64,000 nt of DNA, from positions 1 to 64,000 of the forward strand of contig CAINND010000085.1 in NCBI GenBank assembly GCA_903851035.1, read 5' to 3'. This DNA comes from an uncultured Acidobacteriota bacterium (GTDB lineage: Bacteria; Acidobacteriota; Terriglobia; Terriglobales; Acidobacteriaceae). Position numbers and translations under genes: made by a program. The notes beneath the pieces were generated by a model. That model saw only the letters and a list, made by a program, of their open reading frames with translations. It was not told where the DNA came from and did not search any database. Below, piece by piece: positions 25,150 through 29,961 of the stretch; the first letter of the stretch is position 1; each line of letters opens with the position of its first letter.

Positions 25150-25728
25150 CTAAGCGCGGCCGGCGAAGTCGCGCGTCTCCGTGCTGACCTTGATCTTTTC
25201 GCCGGACTTGATGAAGAGCGGCACGCGGATTTCGATGCCGGTCTCCAGGGTGGCAGCCTTGGTGACGTTGCCGCCGCCGGCGGTGTCGCCGCGCGCGCCC
25301 GGCTCGGTGTAAGTGACGGAGAGCTCGACCTGGTTGGGCAGCTCGATGCCGATGGGCGAGCCGTTGAACTTGACGACCTCGATGATGGCGCCTTCAAGGA
25401 GGAAGTCGAGAGCGTCGCCAATCATTCCCGCGCCCAGTGTGTGCGTCTCAAAGCTGTCCTGGTCGAGGAAGTGAGAGCCGTCGCCATCGCTGTAAAGATA
25501 GCTGGCCTTCACCTGATCCAAGTCGGGCTCCTTGAACTTGTCGCTGGCCTTGAAGGTCTTGTCGAAGACGGCGCGGGTGAGCAGATTGCGCATCTTCAGG
25601 CGGACAAGCGTCTGCCCGCCGCGGGCGGTGGGGGTGTTCACCTCGGCATCCAGGCAGTGGTAGGGCACGCCATCGAGCTCGAAAAACATCTTGCGCTTTA
25701 TGTCAATTGCATCCAGTAGTGCGGCCAT
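25150..25728 (-). CDS. efp: Elongation factor P with PTARG (YeiP/EfpL-like) loop
   Basis: A 192-aa factor that rescues ribosomes stalled at consecutive prolines. The three-domain EF-P layout is intact, ending EIRVPLFIKSGEKIKVSTETRDFAGRA. ATG 25728 has AGAGGAAAC just upstream; an in-frame start at 25773 is less likely. The beta-loop that reaches the peptidyl-transferase centre reads TPTARGGQT (residues 32-40), with Arg36 where classical E. coli EF-P has the PGKGQ loop with modifiable Lys34. It resembles the SPTARGA loop of E. coli YeiP/EfpL. No modification enzyme (EpmA or EarP) is seen in the window. Confidence 0.92.
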   Translation of the reverse strand: MAALLDAIDIKRKMFFELDGVPYHCLDAEVNTPTARGGQTLVRLKMRNLLTRAVFDKTFKASDKFKEPDLDQVKASYLYSDGDGSHFLDQDSFETHTLGAGMIGDALDFLLEGAIIEVVKFNGSPIGIELPNQVELSVTYTEPGARGDTAGGGNVTKAATLETGIEIRVPLFIKSGEKIKVSTETRDFAGRA

Positions 25729-25781
25729 GTTTCCTCTCACAAAAACGGCGCACATCGCGGCGCGCCTGCCCAATAAGAATA

Positions 25782-26033
25782 TCAGCCGCAGGGCGCGGCA
25801 GGCGAGGGGGACGAGGCGGATACTTCGATAACAGGCGAGGAGTTTGAGGGCGAAGTCGCGGCAAAGACCCAGCGCTCGCCCAGCAAGGGATGCGCTGTGA
25901 ACAGCCGCTCGAGTATGGCAACGGCGGCCAACTGGAAGGCCATGCCGATCAAGCCGACGAGATTAAAGCGGCACCAGCGGACAAACACCGTGCGCACTGG
26001 CGCTGCAAAGAACGAACTCACACTGGCGCTCAT
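25782..26033 (-). CDS. Truncated GtrA-like membrane protein, possible remnant
   Basis: 83 residues starting at ATG 26033, which overlaps the upstream stop in ATGA. The first half (VRWCRFNLVGLIGMAFQLAAVAILERLF) resembles the first membrane helix of GtrA-type proteins, flippase-associated membrane proteins of four helices and about 130 residues. The normal middle helices are missing: after AHPLL the chain goes directly to GERWVF, like the end of the GtrA core, and then to a low-complexity Ser/Pro tail. An internal in-frame deletion is the simplest reading. It could still be a small membrane protein, but is more likely decaying. Confidence 0.5.
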   Translation of the reverse strand: MSASVSSFFAAPVRTVFVRWCRFNLVGLIGMAFQLAAVAILERLFTAHPLLGERWVFAATSPSNSSPVIEVSASSPSPAAPCG

Positions 26034-26704
26034 GGCAGCGGCTCCTGGCGGCTCAGTTCTCCGGCATGGCGCAGGGTGGAAAACATCGCCATGGCAAACA
26101 TTCCCATCGAGGCGATAAGGCCGCCGAGATCGAAGAGCAGCAGGCGATGGCCGGCGACGTGGCACCAGGGGCTGCGCAGCAGGGCCAGGTTGCCAAGGCA
26201 GAGAAGCAGGCGGATTTCCGTTGGGCCAAAGATTCCTTGCGACAGATGGAAGCGGCCGACGGTATGCGTTGCCAGATAGCTCTCTCCGCTGAGCAGCAGA
26301 AAGGCGACCAGCATGATGGCCGCCGTTGCCGGATGCAAAAAACCGGAGAAGGCGAGCCCGCCCATCAGCGCAATTGAGCCAAAGAGGTCAGCCATGTGGT
26401 CCACGTAAAAGCCGTAGCGGGGTCGCTGCTGATTGCGCACGCGCGCCAGCGTGCCATCCAGGCTATCGCCCAGCCAGTTCATGGCGATGCACAGGATTCC
26501 CACAAGGAGCCATCGGCGGTCGCGGGAGGCAAAGGCGTAGTAGGCCCCTGCGGCGATTTGTGCAAGCAGGCCAAGGCCGGTGAGCTGGTCGCTGGTGAGC
26601 CACGCGGGCGCGCGGTGCGCCATCCAAACCAACGCACGCTTTTCTACCTGGGCGCTCAGCGAGTGGTTGATGCGAACTTCCGGCGTGTAGTGTGTGGTGG
26701 TCAT
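26030..26704 (-). CDS. CDP-alcohol phosphatidyltransferase family protein
   Basis: A 224-aa integral membrane enzyme with the family active-site motif DGxxAR...GxxxDxxxD: GDSLDGTLARVRNQQRPRYGFYVDH, near residues 80-105, followed by MAD. Such enzymes transfer a phosphoalcohol from CDP-alcohol to a second alcohol in phospholipid or inositol-lipid synthesis; the substrate cannot be told. About six hydrophobic segments are visible. It overlaps its neighbours on both sides by ATGA, so it forms a tight operon with the START-like gene upstream and the GtrA-like gene downstream. Confidence 0.85.
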   Translation of the reverse strand: MTTTHYTPEVRINHSLSAQVEKRALVWMAHRAPAWLTSDQLTGLGLLAQIAAGAYYAFASRDRRWLLVGILCIAMNWLGDSLDGTLARVRNQQRPRYGFYVDHMADLFGSIALMGGLAFSGFLHPATAAIMLVAFLLLSGESYLATHTVGRFHLSQGIFGPTEIRLLLCLGNLALLRSPWCHVAGHRLLLFDLGGLIASMGMFAMAMFSTLRHAGELSRQEPLP

Positions 26705-27543
26705 CGCGGGTTCCTTTCACGGTTGGCATTGGAGTGCGCTTGCGCGGCGTGCAGTGCGTTGCAGCTTGCGTGCAGAGTGAACTCCAGCGACTCACGTGGA
26801 ATGCTCTGGACAAAGGGTCCGATGAGCCAACCCAAGCCGCGCGGCACATCGCGCGTCAGCGATACGGTTTCCAGTTGCAGGTAGAGTCCGCCGTCGGCCT
26901 CGGCGTAGCTCCAATCACTGCGCAGCCTCCAGAGAAAGCCATGCGCTTCGGCTTCTGTGAGCGCATTCTCTGCGCCAGTGCCGGGAGAAGCGATCTCCAC
27001 AATGCGTGTACTGCGAGAAACGGTGTAGCCAAGCGTGGGCGAAGGGCGCAGATGGTCAACCTCGTACTCGGTGTCCAGCACAACGGTGAGCACCTTTTTC
27101 TGGAGCAGCCGTAGCGCGATGTGACTGTGCGCCGCGCCGGAGGGAAGGGCTTCACTGGTTAGCACGCGGGCCGCGGCGACCTGCGGCGCGTAGATGCGCG
27201 GGTAAGAGCCAATATCGCGAAGTATGCGCTCGAAGTCCTGGGCGCGGGCTCCGGCGACAAATGCTGAGCCGCGCCAGTGATGCAGCATGGCTCCGGAGAC
27301 GTCTGCGTCCTTGGGTGTCAGTGCCTCAATGAGAATTTCTCCTCGGCGCAGACGTGCTCTTTCATCGGTAGTGAGTACGACGAAGGTCTCCGGCGAGCGG
27401 TGCTGCCAGGCCAGGCGGCGATCGAGTGCGGCGCTGTGCTGCTCGAAGACAGCCGAGGCCTGGGCCGTAGGGGCGACAAAGGCGGCGAGCGGCGCACAGG
27501 CGAATGCAATCAGCAGCGCGATACCTGTGACGAGCTGGTTCAT
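26701..27543 (-). CDS. Secreted START/SRPBCC-like protein of unknown function
   Basis: 280 aa from ATG 27543. The start MNQLVTGIALLIAFACAPLAAF with a later AxA is a signal peptide. The mature part is a single alpha/beta domain. Its C-terminal segment, GFLWRLRSDWSYAEADGGLYLQLETVSL followed by RDVPRGLGWLIGPFV, resembles START/SRPBCC lipid-binding folds seen in unnamed acidobacterial proteins. No catalytic residues can be named. An earlier in-frame start exists but would bury the signal peptide. It is first in the operon with the phosphatidyltransferase, consistent with a lipid-related job. Confidence 0.6.
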   Translation of the reverse strand: MNQLVTGIALLIAFACAPLAAFVAPTAQASAVFEQHSAALDRRLAWQHRSPETFVVLTTDERARLRRGEILIEALTPKDADVSGAMLHHWRGSAFVAGARAQDFERILRDIGSYPRIYAPQVAAARVLTSEALPSGAAHSHIALRLLQKKVLTVVLDTEYEVDHLRPSPTLGYTVSRSTRIVEIASPGTGAENALTEAEAHGFLWRLRSDWSYAEADGGLYLQLETVSLTRDVPRGLGWLIGPFVQSIPRESLEFTLHASCNALHAAQAHSNANRERNPR

Positions 27544-27763
27544 CCTGCGGCGATACAAGATGTATGTGCGAGTTGGGGGTAAAGTCTGGTGTCTCATGCG
27601 GCGACCATACGAGAGAGTGGCCGAAGCGGCAATCCCCGGCAGGTGAAACAATCGGCATAAAATCCTCACGGTGCAAGTGATTGGTGAGCGGAGGCTTGGG
27701 CGTATTTCTCCATCGTCAAAGGGCTTGGGTGTAGGCGGAGAATTCGATACACTGGCGGCACCA

Positions 27764-28642
27764 ATGAGCAGCCATCCCTCGGATTCCGGGCCCAGCACGC
27801 GCGGCTATCGCTTTGCCAGCTTTGAGGTTGACGTGCGTTCGGGCGAACTGCGGCGGCAGGGCATTCGCCTCAAGCTGAACGCGCAGCCCTTTCAACTGCT
27901 GTTGTTGCTATTGGAACGGCCAGGCGAGGTGGTGACGCGCGAGGAGATCTGCCGAGCACTATGGCCCGAGGGCACGTTTGTGGATTACGAGCACGGCGTG
28001 AACTCCGCGCTGAACCGCCTGCGCGAGGCACTGAATGACACGGCCAGCCATCCGCGTTATGTTGAGACCCTGGCGCGGCGAGGTTACCGCTTTCTTCTTC
28101 CGGTGGAGCGGATCGAAGACCTTGGAGAAACCCCGCCGGTACCGCCTCCGGTGAATGCCGAGGCAGGCGGCTCAGAAGCCGAAGCAGAGGCCACAGCGAT
28201 CCTCGCTTCGCCCGGCGAGTTGCCAAAGGCCAGCACGCAGATGGTGACCGTGCTCTTCCTGCTGCTGCAGGGGATGTACGCTGCCATGTATGTAGGCGCG
28301 CTGGCCAATCTGCCGGAGATTGACGACCTGCTGAGTGCCTTGCACGCCTGGCCGCACACCTACACGCTGATTGTGTTGACGGCTGCGTTACTGCTGCCGG
28401 TGCGAGCCTTCGCCATCTTCCTGGTCACCTTCCACGCTCCCGGCGTGCGAGAGAAGTTCCTGCGCCTATGGCCGGCCACGCTGGTGGCGGACATTCTGTG
28501 GGCGGCCTCGCCTTTTCTGCTGCTGCATCACATCAACTTCGGTCTGGCGCTGGCCGCCACGGTCATCCTGGTGTATTCGCCGTTTGCGCAGCGCGCGCTG
28601 GTGCTGATGGGTGCAGGCAACGTGGAACGGCAGCTTGGATGA
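27764..28642 (+). CDS. Winged-helix (CadC/OmpR-type) regulator with membrane domain
   Basis: 292 aa from ATG 27764. Residues about 12-110 form a Trans_reg_C winged helix: YRFASFEVDVRSGELRR, PFQLLLLLLERPGEVVTREEICRALWP, HGVNSALNRLREALND and YVETLARRGYRFLLPV. A linker rich in Glu and Pro follows, then four hydrophobic segments between residues 155 and 285, with no periplasmic domain of note. This is a one-component membrane regulator architecture rather than the common cytosolic TPR fusion. It is divergent from the START/phosphatidyltransferase operon across 220 bp, so that operon is a possible target. Confidence 0.8.
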   Translation: MSSHPSDSGPSTRGYRFASFEVDVRSGELRRQGIRLKLNAQPFQLLLLLLERPGEVVTREEICRALWPEGTFVDYEHGVNSALNRLREALNDTASHPRYVETLARRGYRFLLPVERIEDLGETPPVPPPVNAEAGGSEAEAEATAILASPGELPKASTQMVTVLFLLLQGMYAAMYVGALANLPEIDDLLSALHAWPHTYTLIVLTAALLLPVRAFAIFLVTFHAPGVREKFLRLWPATLVADILWAASPFLLLHHINFGLALAATVILVYSPFAQRALVLMGAGNVERQLG

Positions 28643-28800: not shown

Positions 28801-29961
28801 ATGTCCGAGGAAAAGATACCTAAACCCGTACGAGCGCATCACCTGATAGCCCTGGCATTGCTGCTGGCATTTGCCGCGCAGTGCGGATGGTTTATTTACT
28901 CCGTGCCGCTGACGCAGGTGGAAGCCGAACAGGTACTGCGCGGCGTGGCTCGCTGGCAGTTGCATCCTGCAACCGAGGCCGCGCAGCCCCCGCTGACCCC
29001 GCTGGTGGCCGCCGCGGGTGTGGCCGTGCTGGCGCGGCATGGGCAGGCAACAGACCTGTTCTGGCTGGACCGTCACCGCTGGCTCATCCGTGCTCCGTTT
29101 CTGCTGGCGGGCCTGTGCCTGGGGCTTTCGCTCTATTATGTGGCGCGGCGGCTGTATGGCGGCGCAGGAGGATTTGTAGCTCTTGGGCTGTTTGCCTTCT
29201 GCCCCGGCATGGTGGCGCGCTCCGCGCTGGCCGGCGGACAGATCTTTGCTAGCTGGGGCGCCTTTGGAATAATTTTTACGGCCATCGCCACGGCGCACAC
29301 CCTCTACGCACCGCGCGAGGTCATCCTGTGGAACTGGAAGCGCATCGGATTGCTGGCCGTGGCCATCACCTTTGCCGTGGGTTCCAGTTGGCCGCTGGTG
29401 TGGCTGCTGCTGCCGGCGGCGGGCTTCATGCTGTGGGCGGTGCCGCACCGGCGCATTGCGGCCATGGTGATTCTTGCAGCGGGTGCAGTGCTAGCCTCCG
29501 TGGCGCTGGCTGTGTGTGAGCTGGGCAACCTGGCGGCTTTCAACGCGGGTGCGGCGCATGCCTTCAGCATGGGCAGCAGCGCGCAACTGCCGCGGGCGCA
29601 GGTGCTGGGACGCATGATCTTCTTCTTTTTTGCCGACGCCGCCCCCGGTGCCTTGCTGCTGAGTGGCGTGGTGCTGGCCGCATGGTGCGCATGGCGGCGG
29701 GTACGCTTCTTCGGCAACACGGCGCCACTGATGGTTTTTGTGCTGCTGGTGGCCATGGGGTTGTTCTTTCCAGAGAGCGGCGCCAGCACGGTGTTGTTTG
29801 CCAGCGTGCCGTTCCTGCTGCTGTTTGTGGGCGGGGTCATGGCCGATCTGATTGAGAGCCGCTGGCAGGCTCCGGCACTGGCCGTTGTGTTTGCCGTCAT
29901 GGCAGCGCAGGCGGCCTACAGCGTCAGCGGACTGATGCGCGTCTTCAGCAAGAACTTTTAA
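28801..29961 (+). CDS. GT-C-like multi-pass membrane protein (ArnT/PMT-like)
   Basis: 386 aa with about ten hydrophobic segments. The first loop after helix 1 contains VPLTQVEAEQVLRGVARWQLHP, where GT-C glycosyltransferases carry an acidic catalytic residue. Conserved features such as RAPFLLAGLCLGLSLYYVARRLYG near residue 100 match dolichyl-phosphate-mannose-type GT-C proteins. It is shorter than most ArnT-type enzymes, which run to 500 residues or more with a soluble domain. It is therefore a likely lipid-linked sugar transferase without certainty of substrate. It is preceded by a 158-bp gap and followed by folC. Confidence 0.6.
   Translation: MSEEKIPKPVRAHHLIALALLLAFAAQCGWFIYSVPLTQVEAEQVLRGVARWQLHPATEAAQPPLTPLVAAAGVAVLARHGQATDLFWLDRHRWLIRAPFLLAGLCLGLSLYYVARRLYGGAGGFVALGLFAFCPGMVARSALAGGQIFASWGAFGIIFTAIATAHTLYAPREVILWNWKRIGLLAVAITFAVGSSWPLVWLLLPAAGFMLWAVPHRRIAAMVILAAGAVLASVALAVCELGNLAAFNAGAAHAFSMGSSAQLPRAQVLGRMIFFFFADAAPGALLLSGVVLAAWCAWRRVRFFGNTAPLMVFVLLVAMGLFFPESGASTVLFASVPFLLLFVGGVMADLIESRWQAPALAVVFAVMAAQAAYSVSGLMRVFSKNF

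Follow-up and report, generated by a model that had tools for sequence, protein, structure and literature searches.

Soil-bacterium genes for the probable synthesis of a membrane lipid and its probable transport beyond the inner membrane, with a decaying gtrA

In cholinephosphotransferase-1 (CHPT1), His133 has been proposed to be catalytic and its replacement by alanine leaves the enzyme nearly dead, and an equivalent of this residue is, in the excerpt cited, reported to be missing from most bacterial CDP-alcohol phosphotransferases (CDP-APs) (PMC10182977). In the inositol-lipid cluster of Bacteroides thetaiotaomicron, deletion of BT_1524, which encodes a GtrA protein, left the lipids unchanged by TLC according to the cited part of that study (PMC9246714). 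The polar lipids of Acidobacteria, as described for Edaphobacter in the cited excerpt, include unidentified glycophospholipids and high-mass lipids (PMC11354219). A search of titles and abstract beginnings in the open-licence literature found no description of a module combining a START protein, a CDP-AP and a GtrA protein; such a module is the subject of the present analysis.

The window, that is, the whole stretch of 64,000 nucleotides that was analyzed, comes from an uncultured acidobacterium whose genome assembly (G000) comprises 3.26 Mb in 121 contigs. Three minus-strand open reading frames (27543 to 25782) are coupled as the preliminary description had stated, with ATGA overlaps at both joints: gene 1 (26701–27543, −) encodes a START/SRPBCC-like protein of 280 aa with a hydrophobic, signal-like segment at its N-terminus (residues ∼5–23), gene 2 (26030–26704, −) a CDP-AP of 224 aa with the intact motif DSLDGTLAR..RYGFYVDHMAD (PF01066, 2.1e-08), and gene 3 (25782–26033, −) a gtrA remnant of 83 aa. 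The next downstream gene, for elongation factor P (25150–25737, −), is not counted in the module. On the other side, and absent from the preliminary description, lies the divergent gene of a winged-helix (wHTH) regulator (Trans_reg_C; 27764–28642, +; PF00486, 1.6e-16), which is a conserved neighbor. Genes 1 and 2 have a dN/dS of ∼0.18 against the sister species, with dS near saturation, and PHROGs gave zero matches for all three operon proteins. A PMT_2-like membrane protein is encoded at 28801–29961 (+) with a weak Pfam match under the cut-off (8.5e-04), and a relative of it also adjoins the operon in genome G002 (L067). Among the earlier observations the three genes, their joints and the truncation of GtrA stood and a remaining helix pair did not, and in the interpretation the START fold, the CDP-AP enzyme and the GtrA protein without its middle were borne out and an inositol lipid was not.

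The arrangement recurs in relatives. Among the closest 80 of the 309 relatives of gene 1, which are the START loci examined, the enzyme gene lies just downstream of START in 57, a share that leans towards the window's kind because these loci are the closest; 41 of the 57 have the order START–CDP-AP–GtrA with a full-length GtrA, a recurrence beyond chance, and one (L178) has an enzyme gene fragment only. The enzyme is not downstream in the other 23 of the closest 80, three of which are explained by a contig end. Named relatives in the same set of 80 are mostly acidobacteria (Granulicella, Edaphobacter, and Terracidiphilus), and 75 of these loci stand under what we take to be acidobacterial taxon names; the other five are labelled Gemmatimonadetes, Rhodanobacteraceae, Verrucomicrobia, Acidimicrobiia, and Betaproteobacteria, and are probably misnamed bins. 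Across 297 genomes of the phylum to which the window belongs, 63 match the enzyme profile at 1e-30. In 39 further loci picked via the enzyme and not via START (20 distant and 19 nearer), GtrA follows the enzyme in 15 of the distant and 18 of the nearer ones, START lies within the fetched stretch in five but in other arrangements (L081, L085, L218, L220, and L223), and the fetched stretch of the remaining 34 contains no START. A single open reading frame of 444 aa in L085 (7022–8356), from another family of the same class, combines GtrA and START domains and may be a fusion, and L105 (5873–7562) has a tandem pair of START genes.

The START-like fold claimed for gene 1 agrees with structure prediction. 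Its AlphaFold2 model (pLDDT 94.2; alignment of 61 sequences) has the strand–helix order of the helix-grip fold, in which an antiparallel sheet wraps around a long helix at the C-terminus, and the lack of a START-like fold, named beforehand as an argument against the claim, did not occur. The Xanthomonas START protein 3qsz was the top Foldseek match (2.7e-07) and aligned with the model in VIA with Z 16.3 (3qsz_A; rmsd 2.8, 164 aligned), the CERT START domain with bound diacylglycerol aligned with Z 15.0 (rmsd 3.7, 193 aligned), and the top VIA row was the aromatase/cyclase ZhuI (Z 16.6, rmsd 2.7, 157 aligned); the best 50 rows, with Z 13.5–16.6, are START/SRPBCC-type entries judging by title. 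START-like folds also occur as enzymes and receptors. In the proposed SRPBCC/START profile check, a Pfam search with gene 1 itself returned no match, and two of 12 homologues matched PF03364 weakly (best 1.4e-04). Against PDB sequences gene 1 gave nothing, or chance-level matches only. A Kyte–Doolittle scan finds a single hydrophobic segment at the signal-like N-terminus, cleavage may follow AQA in our own reading of the residues, and a periplasmic place of the protein is suggested by this hydrophobic N-terminus.

The assignment of gene 2 to the CDP-APs is upheld by a PF01066 score of 35.1 bits (cut-off 22) and by the family motif DxxDGxxAR...GxxxDxxxD, whose catalytic residues are invariant across 41 aligned sequences. 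Directly after the third aspartate stands His103, which is unusual and likewise invariant in the 41 sequences, as are F159, G160, P161, T162, E163, and R165 of the stretch F-G-P-T-E-x-R; FGPTE.R was found in 75 of a set of 83 enzyme sequences. The structure model of gene 2 has a pLDDT of 88.3.

With respect to the lipid that gene 2 makes, the preliminary description had favored an inositol pathway, in which gene 2 would be a phosphatidylinositol-phosphate (PIP) synthase and the module would export its product, and this now appears improbable. The nearest curated NCBIfam models are those of archaetidylinositol phosphate synthase (46.2 bits) and PIP synthase (30.8 bits), matched by 41 and 40 of 41 enzyme sequences, respectively, but the curated cut-offs of 180 and 170 lie far above these scores and gene 2 falls short of an equivalog assignment. 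The Bacteroides inositol-lipid cluster likewise pairs a CDP-AP with the GtrA protein BT_1524 in the excerpt cited (PMC9246714), and an inositol-phosphate synthase is encoded in G000; it sits on another contig, nearly all genomes of the group (55 of 61) have one, and no inositol gene was recognized in the surroundings of the operon. Two further points speak against the idea, namely, that among the 25 genomes that carry the enzyme at E < 1e-30 three (G002, G025, and G059, drafts 94–97% complete) show no inositol-phosphate synthase, and that the window's own genome holds a better PIP-synthase candidate, G000:C11 (L004, 1414–2052, −), with 153 bits to NF040950 against 46 for gene 2, even though this best candidate is itself below the 180 cut-off. 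A Kennedy-type reaction, in which gene 2 would use His103 as the base to join a small CDP-alcohol (CDP-X, with X other than choline) to diacylglycerol or another lipid alcohol of the membrane, is a serious possibility, judged to fall somewhat short of even. The D3-H-x-x-D4 of gene 2 is as in CHPT1, as far as the cited source describes it, and the histidine is kept in all 82 motif-matching sequences of the 83 (the 83rd, L084, is without the AR of the motif, yet also has DH), whereas none of the four CDP-AP paralogues of the same genome that match the pattern has it, proline or serine standing instead; a fifth paralogue, L002, is outside the pattern and has SPLAD at this position. The family profile of gene 2 (A3) matched human CEPT1 in the PDB with 1.3e-06 and PgsA1 with 0.009, although Xenopus CHPT1 reached just 0.021, and Foldseek with the gene 2 model ranked CEPT1 first and CHPT1 second; the VIA Z scores, in contrast, overlap between classes (CHPT1 8ero 17.6, AF2299 16.5, RsPIPS 16.4, other CHPT1/CEPT1 rows 14.6–15.3). 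Short strands at residues 10–12 and 151–153 of the model lie where CHPT1 has a two-stranded sheet and where RsPIPS and SaPgsA have none, but they sit in lower-pLDDT parts and their pairing is only presumed. Also speaking against this reaction, the glutamate partner of the histidine (xl Glu129) is phenylalanine in 81 of 82 sequences and tyrosine in one, the choline contact Trp50 aligns to Leu25 of gene 2 with Glu43 beyond the aligned stretch, the closest curated bacterial models describe CDP-DAG-type enzymes, and a supplier of CDP-X is represented by no match over the cut-off to TIGR01518 or TIGR02320 in 61 genomes. Gene 2 thus differs from the full CHPT1/CEPT1 motif, given in the cited excerpt as D1xxD2G1xxAR...G2ExxD3HxxD4 with both glutamate and histidine (PMC10182977), by replacement of the glutamate, and since the histidine is kept, gene 2 may work like CHPT1/CEPT1 rather than being a member of that group. 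The invariant histidine together with the best profile match to CEPT1 is a hint from sequence comparison of a Kennedy-type reaction of CDP-X with a lipid alcohol.

Other ideas on the enzyme were set aside. For CDP-glycerol supply, TIGR01518 was over the cut-off in none of 61 genomes, weak nucleotidyltransferase matches being common, in G000 as well; for a phosphonolipid, PEP mutase was over the cut-off in none of the 61 and gave no match of any strength in G000. A class III aminotransferase (cluster c3) stands beside some CDP-AP–GtrA pairs (L069, L072, L073, and L083), and as a phosphonolipid gene it was rejected on the tested protein (L072), which fits general aspartate aminotransferase models best. 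No cytidylyltransferase was recognized by eye in clusters of at least three open reading frames in 20 distant neighborhoods, which come from 20 of the 63 profile-matching genomes and belong to other classes, and apparent CDP-AP fusions of 472 and 612 aa (L222 and L223) seem to come from open frames extended wrongly at the N-terminus.

The divergent wHTH gene is present in 52 of the 57 loci with START and CDP-AP (from the closest 80 of 309). The C-terminal half of its protein is hydrophobic in several segments, with no Pfam domain in the protein besides Trans_reg_C; this half is probably multi-TM, and the protein is a candidate membrane-embedded one-component regulator. In the intergenic regions the pattern CTCAC[CG]GNGCAA occurs with at most one mismatch in 38 of 58 (the window included) and always oriented as the wHTH gene, against a mean of 0.42 of 58 in the shuffled control, a difference to be read with the pattern having been chosen from the same sequences after inspection and the shuffle having been made by single bases. 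The window copy, CTCACGGTGCAA (27665–27676, +), is exact, and by its recurrence across loci the element is a candidate operator or promoter part.

Gene 3 had been described as a truncated GtrA-like gene, a helix pair missing its center. GtrA proteins have a four-TM topology. Gene 3 scores 14.6 bits against PF04138, under the cut-off of 26.1 and short of a full TM domain, and one segment only (residues 23–41) passes the Kyte–Doolittle scan; the protein runs from the first TM through HPLLG straight into ERWVF, which lies near the protein end in the GtrA of relatives, and on into a serine-rich tail. One hydrophobic segment followed by this end motif means that TM2–TM4 are gone. Aligned to relatives, the gap amounts to ∼84 codons, in frame, with a junction near 25876–25890 whose exact point is not fixable. 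Most relatives have a full GtrA gene directly after gene 2, often overlapping its end, and not an intact unrelated gene, so that the truncation and the deleted middle were confirmed by the comparison of relatives that had been proposed; of the helix pair, a single hydrophobic segment is left.

Loss of gtrA is not confined to the window. Its state was scored over 83 distinct enzyme sequences, which were left from 89 rows once 6 whose enzyme domains duplicated others had been removed, and gtrA was called absent if the 1.5 kb that follow the enzyme had no same-strand match to the GtrA profile; enzyme matches below 250 bits (the L178 fragment, L030, and others) were left out of the counts, as was L115, which ends at a contig end and was not scorable. 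Intact gtrA was found in 65, and 17 of the 82 scorable loci have lost or broken it (15 of 59 with START and 2 of 23 without), including named strains that are not MAGs, namely, Granulicella paludicola (L140), G. rosea (L143), and Occallatibacter savannae (L146). In L143 the place of gtrA after gene 2 is taken by a protein without annotation whose start is signal-like, and a stretch similar to it continues in frame after gtrA in L114. Parsimony on the enzyme tree counts 13 changes for gtrA against two for START adjacency, the 13 being soft (shuffled labels have a mean of 15.6, 20 of the 500 shuffles reach a count as low, and three changes are forced by starred branches). Because gtrA is lost repeatedly while START adjacency changes twice, gtrA looks like an accessory of the module, and several independent disappearances have probably occurred while enzyme and carrier stayed, as far as the enzyme tree can tell. 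The lack of a TLC lipid phenotype on BT_1524 deletion, in the portion of that study cited above, agrees with a dispensable gtrA in the present module. In the sister species (G002, L158) gtrA is present in full but carries one in-frame stop, and a score of 168.4 bits with the stop read as X indicates that this copy broke late. The enzymes of the window and L158 are sisters (SH-aLRT 91) and their gtrA lesions differ; separate lesions are likelier than one old event, though a shared first lesion may have lain within the part deleted in the window genome. In G001 and G003, the two further genomes of this genus, gene 1 is without a match and gene 2 has weak matches only, which look like paralogues.

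Gene 3 is an accessory gene turned into an ordinary pseudogene by an in-frame deletion, with genes 1 and 2 intact. A new role for the stub as a genuine small protein with one TM is very doubtful. The frame is open across the junction with GC3 alike (0.77 and 0.74) and an N-terminal stub of a similar kind is kept in L133; there, however, a stop follows immediately, the GtrA match is wholly absent in 14 of the 17 lost cases, in the sister species gtrA is interrupted by an in-frame stop and not by a deletion, and the overall pattern is one of decay. An assembly artefact, by which the deletion would be a draft-genome error, could be suspected from an assembly in so many contigs and from a sister-species stop that comes from a MAG (L158), but it is highly improbable, given that the gene 3 frame is clean on either side of the junction and that genomes of named strains show losses too.

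The reading preferred here, with moderate confidence, is a conserved acidobacterial envelope-lipid module in which the enzyme makes a phospholipid, the START protein carries it, GtrA is an accessory, and the wHTH protein regulates. From its fold and motif, gene 2 would make the phospholipid on the cytoplasmic side of the inner membrane; the secreted START protein could bind lipid in its helix-grip cavity and move or present it in the periplasm, its cargo most simply being the gene 2 product en route to the outer membrane. Judged by its family, an intact GtrA may assist membrane passage of the lipid or of a sugar donor, and control of the operon probably lies with the membrane-anchored wHTH protein, acting via the conserved intergenic element. 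Export by the START protein is plausible as a hypothesis. Against this reading count the loci in which START and the enzyme stand apart, the occurrence of enzymes and receptors among START-like folds, and the fact that, to our knowledge, none of the module members has a ligand, substrate, or phenotype ascribed to it. A more specific version, a bacterial Kennedy-type route in Acidobacteria in which the histidine-using CDP-AP adds head group X from CDP-X to a lipid alcohol, a dedicated START protein, secreted, transfers this lipid or its diacylglycerol from one membrane to another, and the membrane-embedded wHTH protein controls, is tentative and rather unlikely as a whole; if true, it would place lipid synthesis, transport, and sensing in one cassette with START in the periplasm. 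The START–enzyme–regulator cassette is of more interest than the gtrA pseudogene, as it gives a direct genetic handle on one of the acidobacterial lipids of the kind mentioned at the outset. The natural series of gtrA disappearance, for its part, bears on the role of GtrA beside CDP-APs.

Compared with known systems, gene 1 shares the helix-grip fold with Xanthomonas 3qsz, whose solved fragment begins at residue 25, but identity is 15% and the N-terminal part of gene 1 is longer. Gene 2 resembles CHPT1/CEPT1 in D3-H-x-x-D4, in the best PDB match by both profile and Foldseek, and in a possible beta pair over the active site, but these enzymes have 10 TM in the excerpt cited against ∼6 in gene 2, in which the glutamate partner of the histidine and a choline contact are lost. 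Similarly, in BT_1522–BT_1526 of B. thetaiotaomicron the CDP-AP BT_1523 adjoins the GtrA-motif protein BT_1524, whereas that cluster has an inositol-phosphate synthase and a phosphatase, and no START protein is named for it in the cited part of the source (PMC9246714); the BT1523 model matches two of 41 enzyme sequences here, weakly (best 0.0012). With respect to the GtrA/DPMS family PF04138, with Listeria GtcA and Mycobacterium Rv3789 as examples, the gene 3 copies of relatives are full-length and GtrA-like, whereas gene 3 of the window retains the first TM only.
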